Of a DNA stretch of 36,852 bases, positions 3,233-22,182 are shown in pieces; the stretch's first letter is position 1, and every line of letters starts with the position of its first letter. The stretch spans positions 1-36,852 of the forward strand of contig NZ_JACJPX010000077.1 of assembly GCF_014696315.1 (NCBI RefSeq), written 5' to 3'. The notes below the pieces were generated by a model. It was not told the origin of the DNA and searched no databases. It saw nothing but the letters and a program-made list of their open reading frames with translations. The translations under genes were made by a program, and so were the position numbers. The DNA is from Calothrix membranacea FACHB-236 (GTDB lineage: Bacteria; Cyanobacteriota; Cyanobacteriia; Cyanobacteriales; Nostocaceae).

Positions 3233-4129
3233 ATGAGTTTTCATTCTGGAGAAATTATAGTCCAAACCCAGGCTGGGGTGCGAGAAGAGGCACAACGTCT
3301 ATGTCATGTCATCAGTAGCAGCATCAAGCCATCTGCGGAGGAATTTCTGCGTCAGCAACAATTAGCAGTTGCTAGTACAGTAGATACAAACGCTAGAGTT
3401 TGGGCATCTTTATTAACAGGACAACCTGGTTTTATAACAGCCTTAAATACGCAAACTATACAGATTAATGCTATTCCTATAGCAACTGATCCCTTACACC
3501 CAAACCTGCAAAGTAACGATGATATTGGGCTATTAGTAATTGATTTAATAAACCGCAGGCGTTTACGTTTAAATGGCAAAGCGGAGGTATATCAAGAGAA
3601 TATCAAAGTAGAAATTCAACAGGTATTTTTTAATTGTCCTAAATATATCCAGGTACGTCACATACAAAAGGCTGTGACTGATTCAATAGAAGCACCCGAA
3701 ACTTTTGTTACAGATACTTTAAATGAGACAAATCAACTTTGGATAACCCAAGCCGATACTTTTTTTATCGCCAGTTATCATCCAGAAAGCGGGGCTGATG
3801 CTTCCCACCGGGGAGGGTTTCCGGGGTTTGTGCAAGTTGTGAATAGTCATCAGCTGATATTTCCCGATTACTCTGGTAATAATATGTTTCAGACATTCGG
3901 TAACTTAAGTGTAAATCCGAATGCTGGTTTATTATTTATTGATTTTGCCCAAGGTCACACATTGCAATTAACTGGGAAAGCAAAGATAATTTGGGACGCA
4001 GAAAGATTAACTGAGTTTGCAGGGGCACAACGTTTAGTAGAGTTTGATATTGAACAGGTATTGGAAAGTAAAAATGCTACCTCTCTATGTTGGCGGTTTG
4101 GCGAATATTCTCCTGTGAATCCAAGATAA
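3233..4129 (+). CDS. Pyridoxamine 5'-phosphate oxidase-like FMN-binding protein
   Basis: A 298-aa soluble protein of the split-barrel flavin-nucleotide-binding superfamily related to pyridoxamine 5'-phosphate oxidase. It begins FHSGEIIVQTQAGV and has the N-terminal half RVWASLLTGQPGF...IGLLVIDL...RRRLRLNGKAEV and a second half with DASHRGGFPGFV, NMFQTFGNLSVNPNAGLLFIDF and LQLTGKAKIIW. So two barrel-like units are present in one chain (about 50-125 and 170-298). Family members bind FMN or F420 and reduce small molecules; the substrate here cannot be told. The gene stands alone, divergent from the NB-ARC/WD40 gene with a 234-bp spacer. No clear ribosome binding site precedes the ATG; the N-terminus matches the family from residue 4, which supports this start. 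Confidence 0.85.
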   Translation: MSFHSGEIIVQTQAGVREEAQRLCHVISSSIKPSAEEFLRQQQLAVASTVDTNARVWASLLTGQPGFITALNTQTIQINAIPIATDPLHPNLQSNDDIGLLVIDLINRRRLRLNGKAEVYQENIKVEIQQVFFNCPKYIQVRHIQKAVTDSIEAPETFVTDTLNETNQLWITQADTFFIASYHPESGADASHRGGFPGFVQVVNSHQLIFPDYSGNNMFQTFGNLSVNPNAGLLFIDFAQGHTLQLTGKAKIIWDAERLTEFAGAQRLVEFDIEQVLESKNATSLCWRFGEYSPVNPR

Positions 4130-4255
4130 AAATTCGAGATATCCTACCTACTAGGACTTAACTTTTCTGAGAGTGAATTGCAATATCGCGCTGTATACTT
4201 CTAACGTCTACCACCGCATTCTTTTTATAACCATAAAAGGAATTTTTTGTCAAGG

Positions 4256-4289: not shown

Positions 4290-4366
4290 TCTTTCATTGG
4301 GTGGTGCGATCGCGTAATCCTAGAAAGATAAAGATCCGCACACTACCAACACAGAGGTTAATAACT

Positions 4367-4792
4367 ATGCCGCAAAATTCTCTTGATATCGGTATCGAAG
4401 CAGTCCCCAGCAAAATTATTAGCTTCACTGCGTTTAAGAATGCAGCGACGAACAATATTCTCATGCCTTTTCCTGCAAAACTCACCCGGAATCAGTTGAG
4501 GAAGGATAAGGTAAAACACAAGGCTAAGTATGACTCGCAACATACTCAAGAGAGTTTAAAAGCGGAAGTTGCGGCTTTGCAACAGGAATTGGCAATTGTC
4601 AAGCAGCAGAAAGCCGAATTAGAAAATCTATTAAAACAGCAGGAAGAGGCGAGAAAAAGCCAAGTTCAAGAGATGCAAATAGAGATTGATTTAAACAAAC
4701 TCGCGCATCAAGTAGCAGAAATTACTCAAACTGATTACTTTCAAAAACTGCAAATAGAAATTGAATTTCTTCGCCATACCAAAATACATTAA
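4367..4792 (+). CDS. Small coiled-coil protein, first gene of ParA/AAA_35 cassette
   Basis: A 141-aa protein of unknown function. Residues about 1-45 (MPQNSLDIGIEAVPSKII) are not recognised. Residues about 55-141 are rich in Glu, Gln, Lys and Leu with heptad spacing (AEVAALQQELAIVKQQKAEL), predicting a long coiled coil. It lacks signal peptide and membrane segments. The open frame extends to a GTG at 4301, but ATG 4367 is preferred because AGAGG lies nine bases before it. It is followed after a 32-bp spacer of heptamer repeats by a ParA-like gene. The context suggests an adaptor or scaffold partner of that ATPase; this is inference. Confidence 0.7.
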   Translation: MPQNSLDIGIEAVPSKIISFTAFKNAATNNILMPFPAKLTRNQLRKDKVKHKAKYDSQHTQESLKAEVAALQQELAIVKQQKAELENLLKQQEEARKSQVQEMQIEIDLNKLAHQVAEITQTDYFQKLQIEIEFLRHTKIH

Positions 4793-4824: not shown

Positions 4825-5574
4825 ATGTCTAAAATTATTGCAATTCACTCATTCCGGGGTGGAACTGGTAAATCTAACATAACGGCAAATTTAGCAGTCA
4901 CAATGGCACTGCAAGACAAACGAGTTGCTATTGTAGATACTGACCTGCAATCTCCTGGTATTCATGCTCTATTTGGTATTGATGAAACAATTGCATGTAA
5001 GACTTTGAATGACTATTTATGGAATCGTAGTTCCATTGCTGATACTGCCTATAATGTTAGTTCTTGTATAGCAATTTCTCCAGGTAAGATTTTCCTGATA
5101 CCTTCTAGTATCAATGCTGATGAGATTGCCAAAATTATCAGCGAAGGATACAACGTTAGTTTACTTAATAGTGGATTTAAAAGATTAATTCAAGAGTTAG
5201 AGTTAGACTACTTATTTATTGATACCCACCCAGGATTAAGCCGAGAAACTTTACTATCTATAGCTATTTCTGATTTGTTAATTGTGATTCTTCGTCCAGA
5301 CCGCCAAGATTTTCAAGGCACAGCAGTTACTCTTAATATCTCTCGTCAATTGCAAGTTAGCAATATGATGATAATCGTTAATAAAACTCCCAGCCGCATG
5401 GACTTTTATTCACTCCAGGAAAAAATAGAGAAAACTTATAATGTTCCAGTTGCAGGTATATTTCCGCTTTCAGAAGACATGGCACAACTCGGCAGTAGTG
5501 GATTATTCTGTTTGCAATACCCTGACCATTCCTTTACTCAAATATTGCAACATTTAACAGAGAAAATAAGTTAA
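4825..5574 (+). CDS. ParA/MinD-family ATPase with Arg-variant P-loop
   Basis: A 249-aa SIMIBI-class ATPase. The deviant Walker A is SFRGGTGKSN (residues 9-18), where Arg11 replaces the signature Lys of the ParA/MinD motif KGGxGK[ST]; the catalytic Gly-Lys-Ser is intact. Walker A' is VDTDLQSPG (D38, D40) and Walker B is YLFIDTHPG (D133). ParA/MinD proteins dimerise around ATP and place or segregate cargo on DNA or membrane. There is no C-terminal amphipathic helix like that of MinD and no ParB gene next door. The gene sits between a coiled-coil protein and an HTH/AAA_35 ATPase on the same strand, so a role within that cassette rather than plasmid partition is likely (inference). Confidence 0.85.
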   Translation: MSKIIAIHSFRGGTGKSNITANLAVTMALQDKRVAIVDTDLQSPGIHALFGIDETIACKTLNDYLWNRSSIADTAYNVSSCIAISPGKIFLIPSSINADEIAKIISEGYNVSLLNSGFKRLIQELELDYLFIDTHPGLSRETLLSIAISDLLIVILRPDRQDFQGTAVTLNISRQLQVSNMMIIVNKTPSRMDFYSLQEKIEKTYNVPVAGIFPLSEDMAQLGSSGLFCLQYPDHSFTQILQHLTEKIS

Positions 5575-5626: not shown

Positions 5627-7039
5627 ATGATTGAACATGTTCAAGAACAAGCAATAACATTTGAAACTGCTTTAAAAGTAGCAGATGAATCTGTATTTGC
5701 CAAACATAATAGACATTTAAAAAATATTGAAGTAGCTGTATTGCGAGGAAGTTTACAAGGTCAAAAGTATGACCAAATAGCCGCAGAATGTGACTATGCT
5801 CCAGAATATATCAAGCATGATGTGGGGCCAAAATTATGGCAGATACTTTCATCTAGCTTAGGCGAAAAAGTCAGTAAAACAAATTTGATGGCTGTTCTCG
5901 CACAAAGAACATCTGAAAAATTCAAAGTTGAAGAATTTTCTTCATTTCCTAGTCTGCAATCTTCAGTATTAAATTCTCAATCTCCAGAAATAGAGTCACC
6001 TGTTGGACTGATACCATTAGATTCTACTTTGTATGTAGAACGTCCTCCGGTAGAATCTCGCTGTTATGAAGAAATTACTAGGTCGGGGGCATTAATTCGC
6101 ATTAAAGCACCTAGTCAAATGGGTAAGACATCTTTAATGGTAAGAATTTTAGCTCATGCTAAACAACAAAATCCTACGGAAGTACGTACTGTAGCTTTAA
6201 GCTTGCAGCGAGCAGAACGTTGTATTTTTAATGACTTAGATAAATTCTTGCGTTGGTTTTGTGCTGCGATTACTCGCAAACTTCAGTTACCCCATAAAGT
6301 TGAGGATTATTGGAGTGAAACTTTTGGTAGTAAAAGCAACTGCACAGCTTATTTTGAAGATTGTTTACTTCCAGATATTAATGGGGTTTTAGTATTAGCT
6401 TTGGATCAAGTTGAGGAAGTATTTTTACACCCAGAGATTGCCGATGATTTCTTTACATTATTACGTTCCTGGTATGAAGAAGCAGCTTATGGAGATAGCG
6501 GTAATCCTTTGTGGCAAAATTTCCGTTTGGTTATTGTTCATTCCACAGAAGTATATATTCCTCTAGATATTAATAAGTCACCATTTAATGTGGGTTTAGC
6601 AATTGAGTTGCAAACATTTACTGACCAACAAGTATTTAATTTAGCCCAACTTTATAGAATTAATTTATCTGAAGCTGAATTATCAGAATTGATGCAGCTT
6701 GTTGGCGGACATCCCTATTTAATACAACAGGCTTTATATCATCTAGCGCAGCAAGATTTGACTTTCAAGCAGTTAATTCAAACCGCAGCGACAGATGCAG
6801 GTATTTATAGCGATCACTTGCATCGCCATTTAAGAAGCTTACAAGAACATCCGCAATTAGCAGCAGCCTATGAGGAAGTAATTCATTCATCAAATCCTGT
6901 AGAGTTGGAACAGATTTTAGCATTTAAGTTGCACAGCATGGGGTTAGTCAAGTTGCAAGGAAATCAGGTTATATCCAGTTGTGAACTATATCGAAAGTAT
7001 TTTGAAGAAGCTTTACGACCAAACGCTATACGTAATTAA
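5627..7039 (+). CDS. HTH plus AAA_35-type ATPase (vMAP-like)
   Basis: A 470-aa cytosolic protein. Residues about 10-92 match the N-terminal HTH domain seen in cyanobacterial vWA-MoxR-associated and AAA-like proteins (FETALKVAD, IEVAVLRGSLQGQKYDQIA, GPKLWQILSSSLGE, KTNL). After a Ser-rich linker (about 100-130), an AAA_35 ATPase domain starts at LYVERPPVE. Its P-loop is APSQMGKTS (G166, K167, T168) and Walker B is VLALDQVEEVF (D260). The segment GGHPYLIQQALYHLAQ (about 362-377) is typical of this family. Such proteins often carry a sensor or effector domain after the ATPase; here the chain ends shortly after the lid, so any effector must act in trans. It is 52 bp downstream of the ParA-like gene, probably in one operon. 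Confidence 0.85.
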   Translation: MIEHVQEQAITFETALKVADESVFAKHNRHLKNIEVAVLRGSLQGQKYDQIAAECDYAPEYIKHDVGPKLWQILSSSLGEKVSKTNLMAVLAQRTSEKFKVEEFSSFPSLQSSVLNSQSPEIESPVGLIPLDSTLYVERPPVESRCYEEITRSGALIRIKAPSQMGKTSLMVRILAHAKQQNPTEVRTVALSLQRAERCIFNDLDKFLRWFCAAITRKLQLPHKVEDYWSETFGSKSNCTAYFEDCLLPDINGVLVLALDQVEEVFLHPEIADDFFTLLRSWYEEAAYGDSGNPLWQNFRLVIVHSTEVYIPLDINKSPFNVGLAIELQTFTDQQVFNLAQLYRINLSEAELSELMQLVGGHPYLIQQALYHLAQQDLTFKQLIQTAATDAGIYSDHLHRHLRSLQEHPQLAAAYEEVIHSSNPVELEQILAFKLHSMGLVKLQGNQVISSCELYRKYFEEALRPNAIRN

Positions 7040-8490: not shown

Positions 8491-8509
8491 TGCATCCTCC
8501 AAGAAATAT

Positions 8510-9000: not shown

Positions 9001-9005
9001 AAAAT

Positions 9006-9017
9006 ATGTATATACAT
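9006..9017. promoter_or_regulatory. Probable MarR operator, copy 2 (autoregulatory)
   Basis: ATGTATATACAT, 6-17 bp upstream of the MarR start codon, overlapping the expected ribosome binding site. It shares its flanks with copy 1 at 8510-8521. Confidence 0.75.
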
Positions 9018-9058
9018 GTTTTTGATAATTGTCAAGACATTGCGATCGCCCGCTGATG

Positions 9059-9473: not shown

Positions 9474-12400
9474 CTAATTCACTCCCTCCACATTGAAGTA
9501 ATTAGCCAACGTCAACACAACCTCCTGAGTCAAACCCTCAGATAACTCTGGCAAGTAAACCCGAATCGCATTCCTGACAGCAGCATCGAATTCGCCAGCG
9601 TTAGCCGTAGCATTACGGACAAATGGCTCAATTAACTTGATTAATTCGTAACTACTGCTAAGGTCAGTATTTTGAATTGCTCTATCCAGTGGTGGGGCTG
9701 TGGGGTCGGGGAATTCTGGCAGAATGCGGCTGACGAAGGTGACGCGGTGGAAGATGCGCCAGCAAGCAGGGCCGCCTTGGGGTTGTCGGGCTTGGCGGAG
9801 TGCTTGAGCATTGGGGGAATTATTCTCTTCTAACCAGATGGGATCGACAATTTCATTAAAGAAAGCGTCGTAATTTTGGGTATCTGGAGTGAGGTAGAAG
9901 CTCAAGAAACGATAGGCGTTGACTTTACCGGGAGTATCCAAAGGATTGCCATTGGCATCATATTCGCGGATGGGACGACCGGCTTCATCGCGCACTAAGT
10001 TACCTCGTTCATCGATTCTAAATCTCTGTAAATCGCCGGGAGTATCGTTTCTCAGGTCGATGCTAAAAGATTGGCTGGCTTCTTTGGTTTTGGATTTAGT
10101 CAGGTTGAGACTACCACCAAAGGATGCTTTAGTTTCTACGTTTAAACTGATACCAACTACTTCTCCGGTGGCGGCAGCGCTAAAGGTGGCGTTACCTGTG
10201 AAATTATAAGCCCCACTGGTAGATTCTTGCTGTATATCTGTGGTTTCTGTGGATTCAGCGAACAGTCCACCATCGGCTGTCCAAATGTAGCTGTTGACTA
10301 AGTTACGTTTACTGTATTGCTCTGGTAAACCGTTGTTGGAACTTAAAGCATCGATTAAACCACCGGCAGCAATTCCCGCAGCTGCGACAAAGGGGGCGGC
10401 TGCACCGGCAACTGAGGCTCCAGCGATCGCGCCTGTGAGTCCTCCAGCTAAGACACCAGTGGCACCGGGGGGTGTGGTACTGAAGTCTTCGTAGTAGGTA
10501 CGTAGGCGGGTTTCTTCGGCTTGAATGCGTTGGCGCAGGGCGTAAGCTTCGCTGGGTTTGAAGTAGCTGTACTCACCGTAGTTGCTAGCTTCGGGATAAT
10601 CTGGATCTAGTACCTTGCCGTTTTGGTCATAACCCACAGCACCATCTAGTGTGCCTTGCTTGGTGTAATCCGGTTTGATGGGGAAAGGAATGATATTGGT
10701 ATCCTTGGGAATATTGGGATTGGAAACCATGCGGAAGGAGACTAGGGCGCGGTTGTGTGCCAAGCGGATGGCATACATATCAGCAGTTTCCGATTCCACG
10801 AGGGCAAAACCGACGTTAGAGGGTTGGTAACGGCGAGGCATGGCTTTATTCAGCCGTCGGTCAATATTTGGATCTTCCCACGCGCCACCTAAGCCGACGG
10901 TGGTCATTTTACTGACATTGGTGATGTTACTTTGTTGTTGGTTACTTGACCATTTCAACTCGGTGTCTAATTTGACTGAAGCACCTAATTTCACACCACC
11001 GGCAATCACATCTCTGGTAATAAATCCAAAACCCAAAGGAGCAACTACACCATCGATGTTTTGACTAACTTCGCCAGTTATGGATGCTTCAAAGGAGGAG
11101 GTGAAACTACTATCTTTACTGGCTGCAATGGTATAAGAAACACTATCAGCTTCGACAAATTCAACAGAAGTTGTATCAACATAGGTGCTAGAAGAATCAT
11201 CAATTGGCCCGGCTGTTAAGTTTTCCGAGGGAACAGGAGGCGCACCTTCGATGAAACCTTTGATTTGGGGGTCAAATTGGACTTGACTAATCCATTCGGT
11301 AATTAAATTGCCGACTTTGTAACCTGTCAACAGATACCAATGATTATTTTGAATGAAAGCGTAGCAGCGTTTGTGAACTCCGGTGATTTCGCCGTTGTTG
11401 GCGGTTTGGATGTCTGCGTATTCCGCGATCGCAGGACGGCTAGTAATATTACTTTTGTATCTGTTTCTTATGCTACCCAGAGCATTCCTAACTAAAGGAA
11501 TGTCATCAGATAAAGGTGCGCGGGAGAAGATATGTTGAATATCTGCATTGTTGCTAGCTTTGAGGTGATGACCGCGCAAGCTGCTGTCATTGACGGTAGT
11601 GACTCTACCTGCGGTTGTCGGATCGGATGCAAATTCGTAGTAAGCTAGCAGATTTTCGCGATCGCCTTTGAGTTGTCCAAACAGGTTATCAAGAATTTGT
11701 TCTTGGGTGCGGAATTGTTTCCAAATGCGGACTTCATCAATTGCGCCCCGGAAATCTCGACCCAAGGTAAACTGATTTTCTGGGAGGGCTACAGGATTGA
11801 TGGGGTTGACCTGGGCTGGGATACCATTGATGTATAATTCCAGCCTGGTAGCTGTGGGTGCAGGATCGGCAACCCAAGTAGCACCGATAATTCTGGCTTC
11901 ATCGTTACCAATTAAATTGGCGGTAGTGTTACCGGAACCTTCGTTAATGCGCCATTCACCTGCTAATTTATCGCGATCGCTATTATTTTGGTGCAATTCG
12001 CTCATACTTAAAGCACGGTTCCATACCCGCAAGCTGCTAATAGTTCCCAACAAATAACGGGGATAACCATTAACTATTCTTGTGCCTTGGGGTATACCAT
12101 TACACCTACCTACTTCTAGAGGTTGTAAACTGGTGACTGGTTTACCGCTACCTGAGATAGTTTCGGTTCTCCGTAATTGCCCGTTCCAGTATAAATTAAC
12201 GGTGTAGCTATTATCACTCTGTCTGCCTGTGACGGCGATGTTCACCGGTGTACCAGGGGTAGGTGCGTTAACAGAAGCAATGATGAGGCGTGGTTGTTGA
12301 TTATCTTCATAACCAAAGCACAGGCTGTAGTTTGTCGCCGAATCTCGTCTGACGTATAGCCAAGCAGTCAGTTCGGGGTTGTCTCTGCCAATTCTACCTT

Positions 12401-15400
12401 TTTGCAACAAGGGGTAGAACATTTGGTTATTGTTAGGCAGAGTTACAGTTAGTTCAATTGTGAGTTCGTTGTCTACACCCAAGCCCACTTGATTGCCACA
12501 GTCAAGGTAATTATCTACACCATTAAATCTTAAAGCATAAGCTTCGGCGTAGGTGGCGGCGATGTGTTCCCAGGTAGTTGTCCACATGGGTTCGGTGGTG
12601 CTGAGGTAGCGGTTTCTCACGCCGGCGACAACGTTGTAGGCGGTGAGTCCTGATTCTACCCTGGGGAGACTGCCGAAAATTTGCCCATCATTGGCAGAGT
12701 TACCAGTGCGATCGCTTGCTGTTCCATCTTCAAAGTGATAGTATGCCCGCAATCCTGCTTCATTGCCATCTAAACGGCAATTTTTAGTATCATTAATCTC
12801 TAGTTTACTACGTACTTTCCCCCAAACCCGGATTTCATCAATTGCACCTTGGAAATAAAACTGCTTGTTGGGATTCTCAATCACCCCAATTAGTAATCCC
12901 CCTGTACCTTGGTAAGCGGCGGTAGCGATATCTTGCTCCACTACTTCCCCATCTTTGTAAATGATCCGTTTGCGGCTTTGGGCATCATAAGTACAAGCCC
13001 AGTGATGCCAATTAGTATCGTTTGCTACACCATTTGGTGTATTCAAATCATTATTAAAGAAGGCGAAGGTGAAGACTCCATTTTGGCGGAAACCGAAATG
13101 TAGTTGGTTATTATTGGTAGGTCTACCTTGGGTGAGAACTGCGGAGAAGAAAGCGTTGAGGTTGGCTGAGTCTCGTTTTGCCCAAAATTCAATGGTGAAG
13201 GATTGATTCGCTAAATTCAAGTTAGCGGCTTGGATATAGTCACTTTGTCCATTAAATCGCAAAGCAGAATTTACAGGCTGTCCTTGAACTCCCAAGCTGT
13301 ATTTAGATGTGGGCGAATTTTGTGAGACTATCCAAGTGATGTTACGAGAGATTTCCTTATCAGGACGAATCCAAGCTTCTAAGGAAATGTCGCCTTGATT
13401 TGATAACTCGGTAGCATCGCCGCTTAAATTTCCACTGCGAATTTGCAGCGCATTTCCTGGAGTGTCGGAAATCCAAGCGTTGGGTTGAGATAAACCAGTT
13501 AGGGGACGGGTAGCAATATTTTCGATATTACCTGCGTTGGATACTCCAGCCACTTCTACCAAAACCGAACCAAATTTGAGATTATACGGAGCATTCATCA
13601 GCTCGCCTGTGTTGCTGAAGCTGCTGTAACTGTCATAATCGTATTCAACCAAGTTGATGGTTGTACCAGCAGGTAGAGTATCTGTAAAGGTAATTTCACT
13701 AATGCTAACTTCTTTGTCACCAGGTGCGATCGCCTTTCTTAAAGAAATAGTACCTGTACCAATTACCAGGGTTGCACCTTGTTCGTAACGTTGAGTTGCA
13801 GGTTCCGCCAGAGTAATTGTATCAACTGTACCTGTGACAGCTGCACCCAATCGACCGAGATAAACCACATCCCGCGCCTGTCCACTCAGCACCCGTGCAA
13901 AACCCATCGGGTTGCGGGGGACTCGTTGCCAAGTTTCGGTAATTTGCAGCAAGCTATTTTCTAGGGTGACATTGCAAGTATTAGCATCTGACTCATCGCT
14001 AATCTTGACAGTAGTGGTTTCAGGGTTAGCATCACTAGCCATAATCACCTTAATTTCGCTGCGTCCCAACCCTGGGGAACGTTCTTGTAGTTGCACGCTA
14101 TTAGAAAGTAAAATATTCGCACGAGCAACATTAGTGTTGTAACTTACAGCAAAAAATTGGTCTGCATCACCCCGGAAATACAACCGCAGCATTCCGTTAG
14201 CACTTTCAAATAATTGCGGTGCGTCATTTGTCCAAGCAAAATCTAGCAGTCCACCCACTACATTTAAACCATTGGGGTCAATATGAATTAAGCGCATGGG
14301 GAAAGCAAATTTTCCTTGCAATTGGGCGCGTAAATCTGCTAGTGTAGCTCTGAGGTTTTGCAGATGTTCTGTTTGTGCTACTAGTTGCTTATTTAAGTTG
14401 GGAAGAATTACCGTTTGAATGTTGGTGATTTGGGCGTTGATGGTGTCAATTTGCGAGTTATATAAGTTAATTTGTTGCTGAAAACTCGCAGTAGTTAGTA
14501 CCCTCGCACTTCTGTAATTACTCAGAAAATAAGTGCCGCCTAATCTACTATTATCCTCATATTGGGCGCGAGAAGTTCCTTGGAAGTTTGGTTGTTCATA
14601 AAGGATGACATACAACCCTGTATCTGGCTTTACCGAGTTAATGGCAATATTTAATGTGGGATGATCGCCAATGCCTAATCGCTGACTAGCACCGAGAAAT
14701 CCAGTTTGAGAATATCCTGTAATACCCTTACTATTTTGTAAATTTGCTCTCAGTCTGGCGCTATTTGCCCTATCAATAATTAATGTTTGAATTGCTGCTT
14801 GTTGCATCGCAATTTCTCTATTGAGAGAGTCAATTTCCCGTTGGGTATTGGGAATTTCGGTTTGTTCTAACTCAATAATTTTATTGATAAAGGTACTGGG
14901 GTCTTTTGTCTTTGTGTCTATCAACGGTAGATTGATATTGTCGGGAATTTGCGATAAACGCCCCCGTTTACTGACAGCAAAATCAAGGACAGCTATTTTT
15001 TTCTGAGTATCATTTTCATCTGCTGTGGCTACCGCCACCAACACACGGGCATTTTGTTTGATGGGTGCAGGTGTTCTATCATGTCCCGTAGGTAGTTCCT
15101 CTTGCTGATAATACAACATAGCAGAGATACCTTTACCTGCCACAGTGCGATCGCCAAATCCAAAACTTGTCCGTTGAATACCAGGATTATCGCCTATAGG
15201 TGCGTCAGACTGTAACCACTCGGCTTGCCCTTCGACAATACCATTGTTGAGGGTGTCAGTGCGATCGTAAACAGTTGTGCCGTTACCTTCATCAAATTGC
15301 CAATAGGTAATTAAACCAGGTTCATTTCCCGCCTTACGGAACTTTTTAGTCTCTCTAACTTCCAGTTCTGAACGTTCCCGTTCCCAAATCGATAATTCAT

Positions 15401-16742
15401 CAACAGTGGCGACAATAGGTAAAGCGGGTTGTGTTCCACCATACAACGAAGCAACATTTCTCCCCACAACCATATAAGTTGTCGTTGCAGAGGTGGTAGG
15501 AAACAATAAATATTGATTGTCTTCGCCTTCACCATTAACAACTGCATCCCCAACTTGAATTTTTACCACACCAGAATTAGCTGGCGCATTCATATTATCG
15601 GGAGCTGGAGCCAGAGAAATACTAATATGGTTCCATTCCCCCATTTTGATCACATTAGCCGCAGAAGTGACAGTTTTGGAATTAGCGCTTACCTGTAAAC
15701 CGTACCCAGGAAGAATTTGTCCATTAGTATTTAACTGAGTTTCTACCAAGCTAATTTGAAAAACTGCTGCTGGTGTTCCTTCTGAATAGATTACGCCAAT
15801 AGTTTCTGGTTTAATCCAAGCAGAAATATTAAACTCTTGCTTGTTGATGACTTGCGCTTTACCTGCAATATAGGTATCAGCATCCAGCTTTAACGCTGTT
15901 TCTGCATAACCCATTTTCGCAAATGCATCTGGACTTTCTGTACCTTGAGTATTGAAAAATCCATCAGCAGAACGTTCGATATTGTACGCATCAATTCTGT
16001 TAGTCCGTTGATTATGGGCAAATATCTGCCAACGTTTAATATCAGGAATACCCGTTGGGACTTGCAAAACCGTAAACCGTCCATCAATCAAATTCCCAAT
16101 AAAGCTTAACTCCATAGTTGGCTCATAAAATGGACGATTATCCATATCTGTAGCGCCGAGAGTATCTTTAGCACCATTTTTGATAATTTTATGACGACTG
16201 CGACGATAGCGGACTTCTCTAGCTGTTTTGAGTTGCGTACCAGAAAGGATAAATCTATCTACTAAAAGAGTTTTGTCAACAATAGGAATAGATGTTTGTC
16301 CATCTGAATTTATGACAGTGACGTTATCAGGATGATTACCATCTATAGACTGACGGAAGAGGTAAATATATTGTCCATCACTCAAGGCTTGAAATGGTGC
16401 ATTTGCTGTGAGTCTAGCGGTGGTAGAACGAAAGAAATCGATTTCTGAACGATTAATCGCAGGTTGACCATTACTTCTAACTGTAGGTAAAACTTTGTTA
16501 GGCAGAATCCCAAAACCAACTTGAGTAATTTCGTTGGGAAAAATCAATTCTTGGGGTGTAGATGACCAATTTCGCGCATCAATTGGGTTAGGGTCATATT
16601 GTTGGTTAAGAACAGTGTAATATATGCGGCGATCGCTATCCATTGCCAAGGATATCAACACCCCTGTATGCTCTACTAAAGTTGTGTACTGATAAGCTTT
16701 GCTGGTGTATTTTTGTAAATAATTATCCCATTGAGGTTGCAT
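9474..16742 (-). CDS. Giant multi-LamG, beta-gamma-crystallin protein
   Basis: A 2,422-aa protein of unknown function. In order: an N-terminal beta-rich region (about 1-270); LamG-like domain 1 (about 277-510, ISAWIKPE...VDELSIWERER); coiled coil (616-668); a beta-gamma-crystallin motif (709-749, YEQPNFQGTS); coiled coil (754-808); a large block (about 1088-1750) in which two complete LamG domains seem nested inside a third; long alternating Ser/Thr-rich strands (about 1864-1947 and 2179-2231); a Gly/Ala-rich hydrophobic hairpin (about 2089-2129); and a helical C-terminus. LamG folds bind glycans or proteins. No signal peptide or anchor is seen, so its location is open. ATG 16742 is chosen because AGGAG lies eight bases upstream; the TTG at 16811 falls in a hairpin loop and has none. 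It probably shares a transcript with the lipoprotein gene upstream. Confidence 0.9.
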   Translation of the reverse strand: MQPQWDNYLQKYTSKAYQYTTLVEHTGVLISLAMDSDRRIYYTVLNQQYDPNPIDARNWSSTPQELIFPNEITQVGFGILPNKVLPTVRSNGQPAINRSEIDFFRSTTARLTANAPFQALSDGQYIYLFRQSIDGNHPDNVTVINSDGQTSIPIVDKTLLVDRFILSGTQLKTAREVRYRRSRHKIIKNGAKDTLGATDMDNRPFYEPTMELSFIGNLIDGRFTVLQVPTGIPDIKRWQIFAHNQRTNRIDAYNIERSADGFFNTQGTESPDAFAKMGYAETALKLDADTYIAGKAQVINKQEFNISAWIKPETIGVIYSEGTPAAVFQISLVETQLNTNGQILPGYGLQVSANSKTVTSAANVIKMGEWNHISISLAPAPDNMNAPANSGVVKIQVGDAVVNGEGEDNQYLLFPTTSATTTYMVVGRNVASLYGGTQPALPIVATVDELSIWERERSELEVRETKKFRKAGNEPGLITYWQFDEGNGTTVYDRTDTLNNGIVEGQAEWLQSDAPIGDNPGIQRTSFGFGDRTVAGKGISAMLYYQQEELPTGHDRTPAPIKQNARVLVAVATADENDTQKKIAVLDFAVSKRGRLSQIPDNINLPLIDTKTKDPSTFINKIIELEQTEIPNTQREIDSLNREIAMQQAAIQTLIIDRANSARLRANLQNSKGITGYSQTGFLGASQRLGIGDHPTLNIAINSVKPDTGLYVILYEQPNFQGTSRAQYEDNSRLGGTYFLSNYRSARVLTTASFQQQINLYNSQIDTINAQITNIQTVILPNLNKQLVAQTEHLQNLRATLADLRAQLQGKFAFPMRLIHIDPNGLNVVGGLLDFAWTNDAPQLFESANGMLRLYFRGDADQFFAVSYNTNVARANILLSNSVQLQERSPGLGRSEIKVIMASDANPETTTVKISDESDANTCNVTLENSLLQITETWQRVPRNPMGFARVLSGQARDVVYLGRLGAAVTGTVDTITLAEPATQRYEQGATLVIGTGTISLRKAIAPGDKEVSISEITFTDTLPAGTTINLVEYDYDSYSSFSNTGELMNAPYNLKFGSVLVEVAGVSNAGNIENIATRPLTGLSQPNAWISDTPGNALQIRSGNLSGDATELSNQGDISLEAWIRPDKEISRNITWIVSQNSPTSKYSLGVQGQPVNSALRFNGQSDYIQAANLNLANQSFTIEFWAKRDSANLNAFFSAVLTQGRPTNNNQLHFGFRQNGVFTFAFFNNDLNTPNGVANDTNWHHWACTYDAQSRKRIIYKDGEVVEQDIATAAYQGTGGLLIGVIENPNKQFYFQGAIDEIRVWGKVRSKLEINDTKNCRLDGNEAGLRAYYHFEDGTASDRTGNSANDGQIFGSLPRVESGLTAYNVVAGVRNRYLSTTEPMWTTTWEHIAATYAEAYALRFNGVDNYLDCGNQVGLGVDNELTIELTVTLPNNNQMFYPLLQKGRIGRDNPELTAWLYVRRDSATNYSLCFGYEDNQQPRLIIASVNAPTPGTPVNIAVTGRQSDNSYTVNLYWNGQLRRTETISGSGKPVTSLQPLEVGRCNGIPQGTRIVNGYPRYLLGTISSLRVWNRALSMSELHQNNSDRDKLAGEWRINEGSGNTTANLIGNDEARIIGATWVADPAPTATRLELYINGIPAQVNPINPVALPENQFTLGRDFRGAIDEVRIWKQFRTQEQILDNLFGQLKGDRENLLAYYEFASDPTTAGRVTTVNDSSLRGHHLKASNNADIQHIFSRAPLSDDIPLVRNALGSIRNRYKSNITSRPAIAEYADIQTANNGEITGVHKRCYAFIQNNHWYLLTGYKVGNLITEWISQVQFDPQIKGFIEGAPPVPSENLTAGPIDDSSSTYVDTTSVEFVEADSVSYTIAASKDSSFTSSFEASITGEVSQNIDGVVAPLGFGFITRDVIAGGVKLGASVKLDTELKWSSNQQQSNITNVSKMTTVGLGGAWEDPNIDRRLNKAMPRRYQPSNVGFALVESETADMYAIRLAHNRALVSFRMVSNPNIPKDTNIIPFPIKPDYTKQGTLDGAVGYDQNGKVLDPDYPEASNYGEYSYFKPSEAYALRQRIQAEETRLRTYYEDFSTTPPGATGVLAGGLTGAIAGASVAGAAAPFVAAAGIAAGGLIDALSSNNGLPEQYSKRNLVNSYIWTADGGLFAESTETTDIQQESTSGAYNFTGNATFSAAATGEVVGISLNVETKASFGGSLNLTKSKTKEASQSFSIDLRNDTPGDLQRFRIDERGNLVRDEAGRPIREYDANGNPLDTPGKVNAYRFLSFYLTPDTQNYDAFFNEIVDPIWLEENNSPNAQALRQARQPQGGPACWRIFHRVTFVSRILPEFPDPTAPPLDRAIQNTDLSSSYELIKLIEPFVRNATANAGEFDAAVRNAIRVYLPELSEGLTQEVVLTLANYFNVEGVN

Positions 16743-17086: not shown

Positions 17087-17132
17087 TTTATAGAATTTGC
17101 CAAGGTAAAAGTCGATACAGAAAAGTTAAGGA
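17087..17132 (-). promoter_or_regulatory. Shared promoter module, lipoprotein-giant unit
   Basis: On the minus strand: a 22-bp motif (17132 to 17111; TCCTTAAC...ATCGAC), 18 bp, then TATAAA (17092 to 17087), then 35 bp to the lipoprotein ATG. The 22-mer is identical to the copy before the exporter gene. Extra CTTAACT heptamers lie upstream at 17151, 17163 and 17184. Confidence 0.7.
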
Positions 17133-17188
17133 ATTAAATTTAGAAGCTAACTTAACTAGATACTTAACTTTTACAACATCACTCTTAA

Positions 17189-18472
17189 CTAAAGGCGAAT
17201 CTGCAATTTTTGATGCGATAAAAATGGTCTTTCCAGCAATTGCAAGGCAATTCTTTTACCTGTACACCAACCGTAATATCCATAAGTTGCGGATGCGCCT
17301 ACAATTTTCTCAAAACCTACAAAGTAAAGTGTAGGATCAACAATAGATTGGCATTTACCATCTGTTTTTGGTAATAATCTATCGTTCTCATTAAGATATA
17401 ATTGCGGCTGTCTCAAAATTTTATTGATACCAGGACGAAAGCCAGTACCTAAAATAATTGCATCGTAATCTTGTGCTACACCATTAGTAAAGATTACGCC
17501 TGTTTTTGTGAGTTGCTGAATACTATTAGAGATGACTCGAATATTTCCTTTTTTGATTTGTTTAACAGTACCTCTATCTACCCAAGCCACACGTCCCTGA
17601 TTAACTTCTATATCCATTGGCCCTTTATCTTCTGGATAGATAGAGTATGCAGTCAAATCTAAAGCAAAACGCTGAATAAATTTATCAGTTTCCTTGATAT
17701 CTGCTTGCAATTCTTCAGGTGAGAAATCTATGGCTTTTTCCATAGCTTTTATTCGAGAATCTATTGTATTATTTTTAAACAAACGTTTAAAGTATGACCT
17801 ACTGCGCCATAACCAATATTGTAGCGATCGCAGTTTTGGATAAAGAGGAAATACCCAACGTTTACCGCGAATTAACATATCTACACGCGCAGCACTATGT
17901 TCATATAAATCGAGTGCTATTTCTGCTGCGGAATTTCCCGAACCAATGACTAAAACCTGCTGATTTTGATAAGGAATGCCATTTTGATAGGTGCTACTAT
18001 GAATAATCTTACCTGAAAAATTTTCTTGCCCCACAAACTTTGGTATTACAGGTTCATTAGTTAGTCCAGTACAAATAATAAGAACCTTGCAGTGTAAAAT
18101 GTCTTTAGTTGTTTGTATTTGCCAGGTTTCATCTGTTTGATTCTGATGATAATTTTTAGTAATATTTTGTACTTCCTCACCAAAACGAATATGTGAATCA
18201 ACTTGGAAATGATATGCATATTCTGCTAAATACTCCACCATTTCCTCTTTCGTCTTAAATGTAGAATATTTTTTCTTGCCCTCAAAAAAAGGTAAAGTAA
18301 AATAAGGATTTTGAGTAGCTAATCGCTCATAGGCGTTTTTCCAGATAGTTGCGACAGTTGCACCTTTCTCTATCACCACAAAGTTATCAATTCCAAATTT
18401 TTTTAAACTAGCAGCAACAGTAATACCGCAAAAACCAGCCCCAATAATGATAACGTCTAGTTCAGCGTTCAT
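17189..18472 (-). CDS. FAD/NADPH flavin-containing monooxygenase
   Basis: A 427-aa class B flavoprotein monooxygenase of the FMO/YUCCA-like type. The FAD Rossmann motif is IIIGAGFCG (residues 8-16), the FMO signature FSGKIIHSSTY (152-162) fits FxGxxxHxxxY, the NADPH motif is VIGSGNSAAE (175-184), and the C-terminal DAIILGTGFRP matches the second conserved FMO segment. Such enzymes add one oxygen atom to N, S or activated carbon substrates using NADPH. The substrate is unknown. The gene starts from a promoter with the same architecture as those of the lipoprotein-giant unit (downstream, same strand) and the divergent exporter. That suggests it tailors a product handled by the exporter (inference). 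Start ATG 18472 has no clear ribosome binding site but fits the promoter spacing. Confidence 0.9.
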   Translation of the reverse strand: MNAELDVIIIGAGFCGITVAASLKKFGIDNFVVIEKGATVATIWKNAYERLATQNPYFTLPFFEGKKKYSTFKTKEEMVEYLAEYAYHFQVDSHIRFGEEVQNITKNYHQNQTDETWQIQTTKDILHCKVLIICTGLTNEPVIPKFVGQENFSGKIIHSSTYQNGIPYQNQQVLVIGSGNSAAEIALDLYEHSAARVDMLIRGKRWVFPLYPKLRSLQYWLWRSRSYFKRLFKNNTIDSRIKAMEKAIDFSPEELQADIKETDKFIQRFALDLTAYSIYPEDKGPMDIEVNQGRVAWVDRGTVKQIKKGNIRVISNSIQQLTKTGVIFTNGVAQDYDAIILGTGFRPGINKILRQPQLYLNENDRLLPKTDGKCQSIVDPTLYFVGFEKIVGASATYGYYGWCTGKRIALQLLERPFLSHQKLQIRL

Positions 18473-18507
18473 AAAATTGACTTGGATTGCAAAACTTAAC
18501 TCTTATC

Positions 18508-18553
18508 TTTATAAAATTTGTGGCTTTAATAGTCGATGTAGATTAGTTAGGGA
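18508..18553 (-). promoter_or_regulatory. Shared promoter module, monooxygenase gene
   Basis: On the minus strand: a 22-bp motif (18553 to 18532; 17 of 22 identical to the other two copies, ending ATCGAC), 18 bp, TATAAA (18513 to 18508), then 35 bp to the ATG. The segment TATAAAGATAA is also shared with the lipoprotein promoter. Confidence 0.65.
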
Positions 18554-18644
18554 ATTTGAAATGTTTGCAAACCTCTTGAAATCTCGTTCCTTATTGCTCT
18601 ATGGATTATTTGAGTTTGCAAGTTAAGCCATTTTCTTATCCATA

Positions 18645-18690
18645 TCCTTAACTTTTCTGTATCGACACTGTAATGGATAATCTCTATATA
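18645..18690 (+). promoter_or_regulatory. Shared promoter module, exporter gene
   Basis: A 22-bp motif (18645-18666) identical to the lipoprotein copy, then 18 bp, TATATA (18685-18690), then 35 bp to the ATG at 18726. An AGTTAAG heptamer lies upstream at 18621-18627. Confidence 0.7.
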
Positions 18691-18725
18691 TAAACAGCAA
18701 TACTATTCATAACGAAACAATTGAG

Positions 18726-20375
18726 ATGAACTTAACAACTTTGCTGTTACGTGCTTCTGGGAAAATTCTGGTTCTTGCTGCTTTCATTGGATTGTTAAGT
18801 GGGGTTAGCACAGCAGGCTTGCTAGTAACCATCAATACAAGCTTTAATAGCTCATCACAGCAAGCAACATTAATTTGGAGTTTTATCAGTCTTGGCTTAA
18901 TAAAATTTGTAAGTAATATAATATCTAAATATATGTTAATAAATTTGGCAGAAAAAGCAATTGTAGAATTGCGTCTTACATTGAGTGAAAGAATTTTATC
19001 CGCACCGTTATATCATCTAGAAATTTTAGGTAAACATCGGCTATTAGCTACCTTAACAGATGATGTTTTAGCAATTTCGCGCATAGTTTATATTATTCCC
19101 ACTTTGTGTATTGATATAACCATTGTAGCCAGTTGTCTTTTATATTTATTTTGGTTATCCTCAACCATATTTTTTTTAGTACTGCTTTCTTTATTGCTAG
19201 GAATACTTAGCTATCAACAGGTTGCACGCAAAGCAAATTTATTTTTTACCTTAGCTCGTCAGCAAGAAGATAAATTATTTAAGCATTTTCAGAGTCTAAC
19301 TGAGGGAACTAAAGAACTAAAGCTTCACAAAGAACGACGACAAATATTTTTAAACCAAGAACTGAGAGAAACTGCACAATTATCTAGAAGCAATAATGTA
19401 GTTGGCATGACTATATTTGCAGTTGCTGCTAGTTGGGGAAATAGCTTATTTTTTGTAGTTGTAGGATTGGTAATTTTTGCTTTGCCTATTTTCCAAACTA
19501 TCCCCACTCATATTTTATCTGGATATGCACTGACAATTCTCTATCTGCTTTCACCTTTAGACTACATTATGAGTGCTATTCCTACTTTTAGCAAAGCAAC
19601 TGTTGCTTTAAACAAGATTGATGTTCTCAAACTATCATTGTCTGATTGCTGTCACGAAGGTAATTTAATGATTTGGGATCGGGCAGATAATTTTTGTCAC
19701 AGTTTAGAATTTGTCGGTATCACTCACACTTATTACCAAGAATCAGAAGATACAGCTTTTACTCTTGGCCCAATTGATTTGACGGTTTCTGGTGGTGAAA
19801 TTGTTTTCATTGTTGGTGGTAATGGAAGTGGAAAGTCTACGCTGCTCAAATTAATCGCTGGTTTATACATTCCTGAAAGTGGAAAGATTTATTTCAATGG
19901 CAAATTAGTGATTGCGGAAAATCAAGAATGGTTCCGCCAACATTTTTCAGCGGTGTTTTCTGATTTTTATCTATTCGATAATTTCTGTAATTTAGGTAAA
20001 AATATTCCTGACGAGCAAATTAAAGATTATCTAGTCAAATTAAAACTAGATAAAAAAGTTCAAATTACCAACGGCATACTTTCAACAACTTTATTATCTC
20101 AAGGACAGCGAAAACGCCTAGCCTTGTTAACAGCTTATTTAGAAGACCGTCCTATCTATGTATTTGATGAATGGGCTGCCGATCAAGATCCTATATTTAA
20201 AAATATTTTTTATACCCAAATATTACCTGAATTGAAAAATCAAGGCAAAACTGTAATAGTAGTCACTCACGATGACCAATATTTCTATTTATCAGACAGG
20301 ATAGTCAAGTTAGATTATGGCAAGGTAGAGAACTTTTATACTTGTCTGATGCCTAGTGAAAAGAATTTAGTTTAA
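18726..20375 (+). CDS. SyrD/PvdE-type (cyclic peptide) export ABC transporter
   Basis: A 549-aa fused permease-ATPase, the usual length for the cyclic peptide/siderophore exporter family. About six membrane helices lie in residues 1-300. The ATPase holds Walker A VGGNGSGKST (about 363-372), signature LLSQGQRKR (about 457-465), Walker B YVFDEWAADQDP (about 478-489) and switch His in VVTHDD (about 514). The DEWAADQDP form is characteristic of SyrD/PvdE proteins, which move peptides or precursors across the inner membrane to the periplasm. No nonribosomal peptide synthetase or precursor peptide gene is nearby except the small lipoprotein. It is divergent from the monooxygenase gene and shares its promoter architecture. 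The stop is 11 bp from the convergent kinase gene. Confidence 0.92.
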   Translation: MNLTTLLLRASGKILVLAAFIGLLSGVSTAGLLVTINTSFNSSSQQATLIWSFISLGLIKFVSNIISKYMLINLAEKAIVELRLTLSERILSAPLYHLEILGKHRLLATLTDDVLAISRIVYIIPTLCIDITIVASCLLYLFWLSSTIFFLVLLSLLLGILSYQQVARKANLFFTLARQQEDKLFKHFQSLTEGTKELKLHKERRQIFLNQELRETAQLSRSNNVVGMTIFAVAASWGNSLFFVVVGLVIFALPIFQTIPTHILSGYALTILYLLSPLDYIMSAIPTFSKATVALNKIDVLKLSLSDCCHEGNLMIWDRADNFCHSLEFVGITHTYYQESEDTAFTLGPIDLTVSGGEIVFIVGGNGSGKSTLLKLIAGLYIPESGKIYFNGKLVIAENQEWFRQHFSAVFSDFYLFDNFCNLGKNIPDEQIKDYLVKLKLDKKVQITNGILSTTLLSQGQRKRLALLTAYLEDRPIYVFDEWAADQDPIFKNIFYTQILPELKNQGKTVIVVTHDDQYFYLSDRIVKLDYGKVENFYTCLMPSEKNLV

Positions 20376-20386
20376 TTCAGACATAT

Positions 20387-21808
20387 TTAACCTTTTAAAG
20401 GCAAACAAATAGTGAAAGTTGCACCTTGATTAGGAGTGCTAATAGCTGTAATACTACCTTGATGAGCTTCAATAATCCTCTTAGTGATAGCTAATCCCAA
20501 ACCATTACCACTACTTTTACGTGAAGGGTCTGTAGTATAAAATTGCTCAAAAATGCGGGGTAAATCGCCTTCCTTGATTCCTTTCCCCTGGTCTTGAATT
20601 TGAATAATTGCTTGTTTTCCTTTGCTGTATCCAGAAATAAATACTTGAGAGTTGGGTGGTGAATGTTTAATCGCATTATCTAACAAGTTGAGAATCGCCT
20701 GTAATAGTCGCTCTGGATCGCCTTGTATTATTAGATGTTCCACATTCACTTGTAGAGAAATTTTCGCGGTTTGCATTCGTGGTTCCATTGCATTCACAGC
20801 ACGGTTAATTAAGCCTCGCAGTGAAACGCTTTGTTGTTCTAGTTGCGTAACTCCCGCTTCTAAACGTCCTAAATCCAGAAGGTCATGAATTAATCTTGCT
20901 AAACGTTTGATTTCGCTGTCGATAGTTTGAAAAAAGCGATCGCGTATTTCTGGTTCTTCATAGGCTCCGCCTTTGAGTGCGTCCACTGTTACCTGAACAT
21001 TACTGATGGGAGTACGCAGTTCGTGGGAAACATTGGCTAAAAATACCCGGCGCTCTTGATCTAGGGAAGCTAATCGTTCACTCATCCGGTTGAGTTCTGC
21101 GGCTAATTGATCCAACTCATTGTTCTCCTGGATGATCAGCTTATCGCCAAAATGACCTCCACCCAAGCGAATTGCAAAGTTCTGCATAATCTCAATCGGT
21201 TTAGAGAGACTGCGAGCAAAGCGACTGCTAATCAATGCACACAGTAAAATTGTGATTGCTAGCGTACCCAAAACGCTCCAAAACACCCTTGCAAACTGTC
21301 GCTGAAACTGCTCCAGGGTAATTGACATTCGCAACACACCCAAAAATTGACCGTTGCGTTCAATCGGTCTAGCAATGTAGAGGCGATCTTTGTTAGATAA
21401 AACTCCTTTAGCAATTCCTTGTTCTACACGATTTTTTAGAGCTGCGCGCATTCCTGGAATTTGATACCAGTCTTTAACTTGAGAGTCTAACTTTGGGTCA
21501 GAAGTAGCTATCAGATTACCTTGTTGATTAAAAACACGCAACGTCAAATTTTGCGGTGCGCCGTACCGTTGCACCAGCAATTTTACCTGTGGAATATCTT
21601 TTTGTTCTAGTCCATCTGCAACACTTTCACTTAATGCACTTGTCCAGTTATCCAAATCTACTTGTCGCATTCGCATGAAATAATCAGCGAACGACCACAG
21701 GATATAACCTGCTAGCAGTGACGTTCCAAAAGCTGTCAGCATCAAGTATGTGCCAAACAGCTTCGCATGAATTGTATTTAATTTAATTCGGGGTAAGAAG
21801 CCTCTCAT
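20387..21808 (-). CDS. Membrane sensor histidine kinase (HAMP, HisKA, HATPase)
   Basis: A 473-aa transmitter. TM1 lies at about 16-40, a periplasmic sensor of about 130 residues follows (with SESVADGLEQ and IARPIERNGQFLGVLRMS, a Cache-like pattern), TM2 is about 172-193, and HAMP is about 195-250. The H-box is FLANVSHELRTP (phospho-His near 263). The ATPase has the N-box LLDNAIKHSPP, G1 DQGKGI, F-box IFEQFY and G2 GNGLGLAI, so it should be active. Its ATG overlaps the stop of the response regulator by four bases (ATGA), implying translational coupling. The signal is unknown. Confidence 0.93.
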   Translation of the reverse strand: MRGFLPRIKLNTIHAKLFGTYLMLTAFGTSLLAGYILWSFADYFMRMRQVDLDNWTSALSESVADGLEQKDIPQVKLLVQRYGAPQNLTLRVFNQQGNLIATSDPKLDSQVKDWYQIPGMRAALKNRVEQGIAKGVLSNKDRLYIARPIERNGQFLGVLRMSITLEQFQRQFARVFWSVLGTLAITILLCALISSRFARSLSKPIEIMQNFAIRLGGGHFGDKLIIQENNELDQLAAELNRMSERLASLDQERRVFLANVSHELRTPISNVQVTVDALKGGAYEEPEIRDRFFQTIDSEIKRLARLIHDLLDLGRLEAGVTQLEQQSVSLRGLINRAVNAMEPRMQTAKISLQVNVEHLIIQGDPERLLQAILNLLDNAIKHSPPNSQVFISGYSKGKQAIIQIQDQGKGIKEGDLPRIFEQFYTTDPSRKSSGNGLGLAITKRIIEAHQGSITAISTPNQGATFTICLPLKG

Positions 21809-22182
21809 GAAGGCTGTTCCTCAGAACGACGACGCAACACTGCTTTGATGCGTGCTAGCAATTCACGAGTATTGAAGGGCTTAGTCACATAATCATCCGC
21901 TCCAGCTTCTAAGCCCCATATTTTATCTACATCCTGATCTTTAGCTGTGAGCATGACAATGGGTACATTGGAAAAGGCTCGAATTCGCCAACAGACTTCC
22001 ATACCACTCACTTCCGGTAACATCAGGTCGAGCAAAATTATATCTGGTACTTGCTTGTGGAACTGTTTGATTGCATTATGCCCATCAACGGCTGTACTCA
22101 CTGTATAGCCTTCTTTTTGTAATGTATATGTGAGACTGTCGCGCAAGGCCGCTTCATCATCCACGAGTAAGACGTGTGGCAT
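21805..22182 (-). CDS. Receiver-only response regulator (OmpR-type, lacks DNA-binding domain)
   Basis: A 125-aa CheY-like receiver. The acidic pocket is D8/D9, phospho-acceptor D52 (LLLDLMLPE), T79 and K101 (VTKPF). The end (NTRELLARIKAVLRRRSEE) is the linker that in OmpR/PhoB regulators joins to the winged helix, but the protein stops there and the kinase gene starts at once. The DNA-binding domain has therefore been lost, perhaps by deletion. It may act by protein contacts or as a phosphate sink for the kinase encoded just downstream. Confidence 0.9.
   Translation of the reverse strand: MPHVLLVDDEAALRDSLTYTLQKEGYTVSTAVDGHNAIKQFHKQVPDIILLDLMLPEVSGMEVCWRIRAFSNVPIVMLTAKDQDVDKIWGLEAGADDYVTKPFNTRELLARIKAVLRRRSEEQPS

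Follow-up and report, generated by a model that had tools for sequence, protein, structure and literature searches.

Activators of the MalT/LAL type combine a LuxR-type helix-turn-helix (HTH) with a large ATPase sensor, and colicin-type regulons produce a lysis lipoprotein from a LexA-repressed promoter. Traits of both recur in the stretch of DNA analysed here, contig NZ_JACJPX010000077.1 of the cyanobacterium Calothrix membranacea FACHB-236 (36,852 nucleotides, hereafter the window), in which three copies of a conserved promoter element precede genes for a small lipoprotein, a flavoprotein and a cyclic peptide exporter, and which also encodes an ATPase of the AAA_35 family with a putative N-terminal HTH (HTH-AAA_35). 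The resemblance to MalT/LAL lies in a putative LuxR-like HTH joined to an ATPase, in a site that abuts the -35 and in the activation of a sigma-70-type promoter, which we infer here; unlike in MalT/LAL, the HTH is N-terminal, the ATPase belongs to AAA_35 (PF14516), there is no Pfam GerE match and DNA binding is predicted from sequence. As in colicin-type regulons, a small lipoprotein precedes a large protein without an evident signal peptide, and weapon and release would share a promoter; unlike in those regulons, the promoter is putatively of an activator type and not LexA-repressed, and a role in lysis is suggested by analogy.

The nucleoside triphosphate-dependent conflict systems of multicellular prokaryotes employ STAND or AAA ATPases, WD40 proteins and mixed toxic-looking effectors (Kaur et al. 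2020, PMC7159879). As far as the accessible part of that paper describes them, the clusters reported here share these ATPases, WD40 repeats, the enrichment in multicellular cyanobacteria and the mixed toxic-looking effectors; unlike in those systems, a shared promoter is the unifying feature here, and the words "promoter" and "MACPF" do not occur in the accessible text. For the thylakoid-anchored contractile injection systems of Anabaena, the accessible part of the respective report describes cells that lyse under stress and leave ghost cells on which the injection systems are exposed (PMC8894136). The likeness consists in a sheath gene behind a site in one relative (genome G193), and stress-linked lysis is a plausible setting; unlike in that report, in the accessible main text of which the string "regulat" is absent, the sheath is linked here to the promoter element, in one genome. 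The reading that we favour, and hold to be moderately probable, is that the three window sites belong to one regulon of sigma-A-type promoters that is likely activated by the HTH-AAA_35 ATPase and has an output resembling antagonism or lysis.

Anatomy and distribution of the element

The original prediction, made from the window sequence, described a 22-bp identity between two sites and a partly matching third, and direct reading and a script agree with it: TCCTTAACTTTTCTGTATCGAC at 17111-17132 (minus strand) and at 18645-18666 (plus strand) are identical at 22 of 22 positions, and TCCCTAACTAATCTACATCGAC at 18532-18553 (minus strand) matches 17 of the 22. The spacer is 18 bp at all three sites, the boxes being TATAAA at 17087-17092 and 18508-18513 (both minus strand) and TATATA at 18685-18690 (plus strand). 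The distance of 35 bp from box to ATG holds, by script, for all three window sites but not as a general promoter rule: leaders of about 23-61 bp are found before the recognised gene classes of relatives, and a fixed 35-bp leader was therefore rejected as part of the motif, although it is kept at 16 of 21 lipoprotein sites. The heptamers reported around the sites are likewise present (CTTAACT at 17151, 17163, 17184 and 18495, AGTTAAG at 18621, by script), but the copy at 18495 sits downstream of the -10 box. With up to two mismatches allowed, ATCGAC-N18-TATAWA, the short form, occurs in the window six times against 6.24 expected from shuffles, an ordinary frequency, so that the claim rests on the longer block. 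A partial match at 4157-4169 is indeed present in the window, but is conserved before the same cassette in only two of the 14 relatives checked (the window and G200; a third has it in weaker form), and it was rejected as a fourth window promoter for lack of conservation.

Anatomy was derived from 115 perfect copies (any base allowed in the -35) in fetched neighbourhoods of 39 genomes, 28 from the same family and 11 from others. A -10 match lies 17-19 bp away in 110 copies and is absent from the remaining five; the spacing is 18 bp in 104 of the 110, with TATA placed after ATCGAC as in sigma-70/sigma-A promoters, 19 bp in five and 17 bp in one. Columns that were not part of the search are conserved as well in 52 de-duplicated copies (TCC at -3 to -1 in 92, 85 and 98%; A at -6 and -5 in 87% each). 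At the third base of ATNGAC, where any base was allowed, C occurs 100 times, G 8, T 6 and A once (n=115). This pattern and the 17-bp distance of TNGAC from the -10 lead us to interpret T[C/G/T]GACN as a poor -35 for sigma-A and the preceding block as an activator site; in sequence terms the -35 would be T[C/G/T]GAC[A/T], and the ATCGAC of the original prediction an A plus that -35. T stands at the second place of the -35 in only 6 of 115 copies, and a sigma-70 consensus scan did not list the three window sites, since its rules require T at the sixth -10 position.

Upstream of the element, the heptamer AGTTAAG, for which the search did not select, is present in 82 copies in 84 de-duplicated regions against 1.1 expected from mononucleotide shuffles, an approximately 75-fold excess; 63 of the 84 regions have at least one copy and 21 have none. 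Direct copies peak at -28/-27, -19 and -40, and the opposite orientation accounts for 10 copies against 1.08 expected. The cyanobacterial Pho octamer consists of PyTTAAPyPyT repeats with an 11-bp period. CTTAACT resembles it in the sequence of the heptamer, and the sites might be taken for Pho/SphR phosphate boxes, which we regard as highly improbable: the heptamers are spaced by 9-12 and 21 bp with no regular 11 and form no octamer repeats, the core does not vary and is not built of repeats, and among the genes that follow the sites no phosphate gene was seen.

The geometry also bears on the choice, left undecided by the original prediction, between an activator and an alternative sigma factor. 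A TATA -10 with TNGAC 17 bp away speaks for an activator on a sigma-70-type promoter and against an alternative sigma factor. It is unlikely that a dedicated alternative sigma factor reads the element as its -35 region, even if a block that is long and fixed and keeps its distance from the -10 would suit this, and the HTH described below resembles sigma region 4 too. The -10 has the ordinary form TATAWA, and variation in the -35 part is confined to the place where a TTGAC-like hexamer would vary. AGTTAAG sites in direct orientation at several upstream distances fit an activator and not a sigma factor, and the candidate regulator is without sigma region 2 in Pfam; as weak negative evidence, no sigma gene was seen in the mapped clusters.

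A search of the genome and its relatives for the motif and the genes that follow it, as the original prediction had proposed, revealed that the element recurs across families before a small set of recurring genes. In the window's own genome (8.81 Mb), TAACTNNTCTNNATCGAC-N17..19-TATA occurs four times and its reversed-pattern control never, the fourth copy, on contig C156, standing upstream of the gene for an AAA_35-WD40 protein of 1197 aa. A shorter pattern with two mismatches and no -10 required yielded 54 matches in this genome against 81 in the control; as this relaxed pattern falls below control level, only near-perfect copies are informative. Among Nostocaceae, the element was found in 27 of 217 genomes and 15 of 56 genera, at 66 sites (reversed-pattern control, 1), and in the window's genus in one of eight genomes, that of the window itself. 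In an order-level sample of 388 genomes, searched with N in the -35, 22 had the element (8 of the 71 from the same family, 14 of the 317 from other families; control, 2). When 84,980 species (a 257-Gb collection) were scanned, the element was found in 54 stretches, all titled cyanobacteria, where by our own arithmetic (41 bits, 5.1e11 positions, equal base frequencies) about 0.2 matches would be expected by chance; the named carriers include heterocystous genera as well as Microseira, Microcoleus, Cyanothece and Cyanosarcina. No description of the element was found in open-licence PMC papers, in which four literal strings of it were unmatched.

None of the 115 perfect copies lies inside an open reading frame (ORF) of at least 150 aa, though such ORFs, called mechanically by our script, cover 78% of the DNA; a chance origin was rejected on the grounds of the reversed-pattern controls and the intergenic placement. 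Of the imperfect copies, one of the 23 that have a single mismatch and three of the 17 that have two fall inside such ORFs. The near-identity of the copies, their patchy distribution (one of eight genomes in the genus) and the location of one cluster, in Nostoc sp. UHCC 0870, on a 247-kb plasmid are what would be expected of pieces of a mobile repeat (a miniature inverted-repeat transposable element or an insertion sequence end) that happen to precede genes. This is also most improbable, because neither the 18-bp spacer nor the flanks are the same from one gene class to another, the copies occur on both strands, before recurring genes and outside long ORFs, start codons follow at similar distances, and not one copy was found in 2.9 million viral contigs, a result on which viral spread of the element was likewise rejected. 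The UHCC 0870 plasmid cluster (L250, NZ_CP091914.1 1-29106) contains a nonribosomal peptide synthetase (NRPS) gene together with genes for a spondin-domain and a CSLREA protein. Conservation across families, intergenic placement and a small recurring gene set uphold the proposal of a single dedicated control system.

Genes behind the sites

The nearest classed gene, as assigned by script, encodes an AAA-WD40 protein at 27 sites, a DUF4278 protein at 17, the exporter at 16 (in 16 genomes), the flavoprotein at 14 (in 13 genomes) and the lipoprotein at 10. Rarer classes are GIANT (5), CSLREA-type (5, under three labels), beta-helix (3), NRPS (3, under two labels, in G059 and G082) and VanY (2), and HlyD, GIANT2, AAA-WHD, sheath and DUF4915 occur at one site each. 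The eight unclassed sites comprise five that precede lipoproteins by eye, an exporter cut at the locus end (G023), a site without a long ORF (G070) and one before a 197-aa ORF (G336). A refined rule finds the lipoprotein at 21 sites in 21 genomes, some of them otherwise labelled GIANT; the lipoproteins have 56-65 aa, or 66 aa in some cases when called from an upstream ATG. In its sequence the window lipoprotein combines the small size and the lipobox of a colicin-type lysis lipoprotein (59 aa, LLTQAC).

Pfam matches support the sheath (5.2e-17), VanY (1.3e-07, with PG_binding at 5e-14), DUF4278 (3.1e-14), condensation and AMP-binding domains, and HlyD. According to the accessible part of PMC6316151, DUF4278 corresponds to the N-terminal part of IF17, the factor that inactivates glutamine synthetase. 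The LamG giants and the VanY, CSLREA, RTX and MACPF proteins checked have no strongly hydrophobic N-terminus (at most 1.7 in a crude hydropathy window, which is rough: the lipoprotein scores 2.6, yet a flavoprotein 2.3). Among the genomes studied, the sheath stands behind a site in G193 only, where Phage_sheath_1 follows a perfect copy with 19-bp spacing (L095, 9103-10516) in a possible injection-system cluster. In G258 (L140, 12565-14668) a site is followed by a DUF4278 ORF and then by a 596-aa protein that matches FG-GAP and, weakly, metallopeptidases.

This variety is wider than the one pathway proposed originally, given that the copies of relatives precede NRPS, VanY, contractile sheath, HlyD, CSLREA/beta-helix and AAA-WD40 ATPase genes. 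A single secondary-metabolite or siderophore-like pathway composed of flavoprotein, exporter, lipoprotein and LamG protein is very doubtful: three of the four window genes behind or near sites could fit one peptide pathway, and the NRPS genes of G059 and G082 point in the same direction, but AAA-WD40 ATPases (27 sites), DUF4278 (17), VanY, sheath and beta-helix proteins do not, and no biosynthetic enzyme set was recognised among the window proteins. The exporter was rejected as the system-defining gene, since its close orthologs (at least 855 bits) mark a subset of only 17 genomes, all with the motif.

The candidate regulator

The 470-aa HTH-AAA_35 protein matches AAA_35 (PF14516) with 500.1 bits against a cut-off of 27 and recurs in the mapped clusters. 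The family is a very common one: 206 of 217 Nostocaceae genomes have orthologs or paralogs (E 1e-40), from which the orthologs of the regulator are set apart by score: 26 genomes at or above 711 bits, G059 at 582 and the rest at 500 or below. A profile of 55 N-termini (39 orthologs and 16 paralogs) compared with one of 25 GerE domains from the same genome scored 32.5 (E 1.2e-5, probability 81%), 30 column-shuffled controls reaching at most 15.6; against 11 sigma70 region-4 domains it scored 29.1 (controls at most 14.4). The segment EYIKHDV aligns onto the LuxR recognition helix.

In Nostocaceae, the strict motif and the ortholog (at least 582 bits) are found together in 24 genomes, the motif only in 3, the ortholog only in 3 and neither in 187 (Fisher p 1.6e-25). 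The three ortholog-only genomes (G185, G188, G209) each have a copy under a slightly relaxed pattern, in a search of 15 chosen genomes whose reversed control gave 0 in 15 and whose negatives were represented by G329 and G450 (0 each). In other families (317 genomes), the motif accompanies 9 of 10 orthologs (at least 643 bits) as opposed to 5 of 307 other genomes (p 2.5e-13), and in the tenth, G496, copies with one mismatch adjoin the gene. The divergent relatives in G329 and G450 (59% identity) have YNHEYLKNNVGP where others mostly have YAPEYIKHDVGP, a change in the putative recognition helix, and no copy of the element was found in these two genomes with the relaxed pattern.

Several observations weigh against assigning the regulon to HTH-AAA_35 or its output to antagonism. 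The motif is present without a close ortholog in G070, G082 and G173, of which G082 is a metagenome-assembled genome with three sites. In other families, G336 has a C-terminally short copy (HTH intact) and G487 a fragment, and G526, G265 and G461 have the motif with no ortholog above threshold (the G526 genome is 84% complete, and the G265 site lies within a long ORF). Counting G329 and G450 as orthologs changes the second table to 9, 3, 5 and 300 (p 5.3e-12), excluding G059 changes the first to 23, 3, 4 and 187 (p 6.8e-24), and all these p values overstate independence because the genomes are related. Pfam names no HTH in the protein, a PDB sequence search with it gave no meaningful relative, and its own cassette is without an element of this form in most relatives checked. 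On the side of the output, MACPF (8.7e-29), class-3 lipase (6.5e-25) and RTX-like genes lie only behind imperfect sites (two mismatches before MACPF, one before the lipase and RTX-like genes), several cargo classes were found just once or twice, and flavoprotein, DUF4278 and PPOX show no obvious weapon role. Finally, ParA (at least 363 bits) tracks the motif equally well in Nostocaceae, its 27 genomes being the 26 with orthologs of at least 711 bits plus G006.

This last point and the three family genomes that have the motif and no HTH-AAA_35 ortholog lend some weight to a regulon with the same promoter and another activator, an unlinked factor or a ParA/coiled-coil partner with one, HTH-AAA_35 being only cargo or a modulator; the regulator candidates, moreover, were drawn from mapped clusters. 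We consider this possible, at roughly one chance in four. ParA has no known sequence-specific HTH and is absent from the mapped regulator neighbourhoods of G241, G258 and G490 (neighbourhoods only, not genome-wide), and of the neighbours found beside sites in several families, HTH-AAA_35 alone has a domain that resembles a DNA-binding one. The window's other regulatory genes, which are found again in few clusters or none, were not favoured: the MarR gene (8545-9156) has no shared cluster in the family loci, and for the histidine kinase/receiver pair (20387-22182) the kinase cluster covers 5 genomes and the receiver 3.

The features of the window are collected in Table 1. The kinase and its receiver-only response regulator adjoin the exporter, and few clusters share the pair. 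At 7150-8502 a protein with 4Fe-4S and SCP2 matches has a weak likeness to QueG/reductive dehalogenase families. A glutathione S-transferase gene that adjoins PPOX in several clusters (L160, 16803-17399; L164, 4761-5357) is absent from the window. In G490 (L149, 762-7730) a giant LamG protein with a ricin-type lectin match adjoins the regulator, and no site was seen directly before the giant.

Table 1. Promoters, half-sites and genes of the window
Feature	Position	Strand	Remarks
Promoter 1	17087..17132	-	TCCTTAACTTTTCTGTATCGAC-N18-TATAAA; assigned to lipoprotein, probably also giant LamG protein
Promoter 2	18508..18553	-	TCCCTAACTAATCTACATCGAC-N18-TATAAA; assigned to flavoprotein
Promoter 3	18645..18690	+	TCCTTAACTTTTCTGTATCGAC-N18-TATATA; assigned to cyclic peptide exporter
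Upstream half-site AGTTAAG	17151..17157	-	-28 from promoter 1 core; commonest class among 84 de-duplicated regions
Upstream half-site AGTTAAG	17163..17169	-	-40 from promoter 1 core; preferred position
Upstream half-site AGTTAAG	17184..17190	-	-61 from promoter 1 core; -61 occurs in 2 of 84 regions
Upstream half-site AGTTAAG	18621..18627	+	-27 from promoter 3 core; preferred position
Small lipoprotein, 59 aa	16872..17051	-	Translation; lipobox-like LLTQAC, judged by eye and regular expression; relatives 56-66 aa
Giant protein, four LamG (Laminin_G_3) stretches	9474..16742	-	Likely start ATG 16742 (MQPQWDN); ORF open to 16811
Flavoprotein, Pyr_redox_3/FMO-like group	17189..18472	-	Family matches
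Cyclic peptide export ABC transporter	18726..20375	+	TIGR01194, 471.1 bits against cut-off 286.2
Candidate regulator (HTH-AAA_35)	5627..7039	+	N-terminal LuxR/sigma4-like HTH (about aa 30-66), AAA_35 ATPase (aa 125-461)
ParA/MinD-type ATPase	4825..5574	+	Upstream of candidate regulator
Coiled-coil protein, same cassette	4301..4792	+	Start codon uncertain
PPOX-type flavoprotein	3233..4129	+	Conserved neighbour
WD40 protein, grouped with AAA_35-WD40 family of the clusters	89..2998	-	No site found nearby in window

Proposed mechanism and meaning

In the regulon that we propose, a sigma-A-type promoter with a TATAWA -10 and a deliberately poor -35, 17 bp apart, would depend on a dedicated activator, for which the conserved block AAANTCCTTAACTTTTCTGTA, abutting the -35, is the putative binding site, assisted by AGTTAAG half-sites 19-40 bp upstream. 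The likeliest activator is the HTH-AAA_35 ATPase of the cluster (5627-7039), acting as a STAND-like or MalT-like switch: its ATPase part may sense a signal, perhaps with help from its partners, ParA and AAA_35-WD40, whereupon the LuxR-like HTH would bind the element and recruit RNA polymerase. As an AAA_35-WD40 gene itself stands behind the promoter, positive feedback could arise. The output would be a mixed cargo of the lysis-protein-like lipoprotein, LamG giants without evident signal peptides, and the peptide exporter with the flavoprotein, to which relatives would add NRPS, VanY, contractile sheath and beta-helix proteins, and it may serve against other cells or for lysis.

A bolder and more tentative extension, to which we give little better than a one-in-three chance, is that multicellular cyanobacteria possess a horizontally mobile "weapon regulon" not described before, in which one HTH-AAA_35 sensor-activator and one 26-bp element would govern unrelated antagonism or lysis modules that were plugged in by promoter acquisition and fire together in one signalled, possibly suicidal response. 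The modules would then comprise LamG giants with the lysis lipoprotein, NRPS with the exporter, the contractile injection system, VanY, perforin-like and beta-helix proteins. What can be said at present is that the element has the look of a control site for a transferable programme of attack or self-lysis. If this is true, it would offer a sequence handle on when cyanobacteria deploy large proteins, secreted or lytic, of which little is understood, as well as peptide exporters and contractile injection systems, name a candidate switch protein from a very common, uncharacterised ATPase family, and make the element itself a search tool for new antagonism genes.

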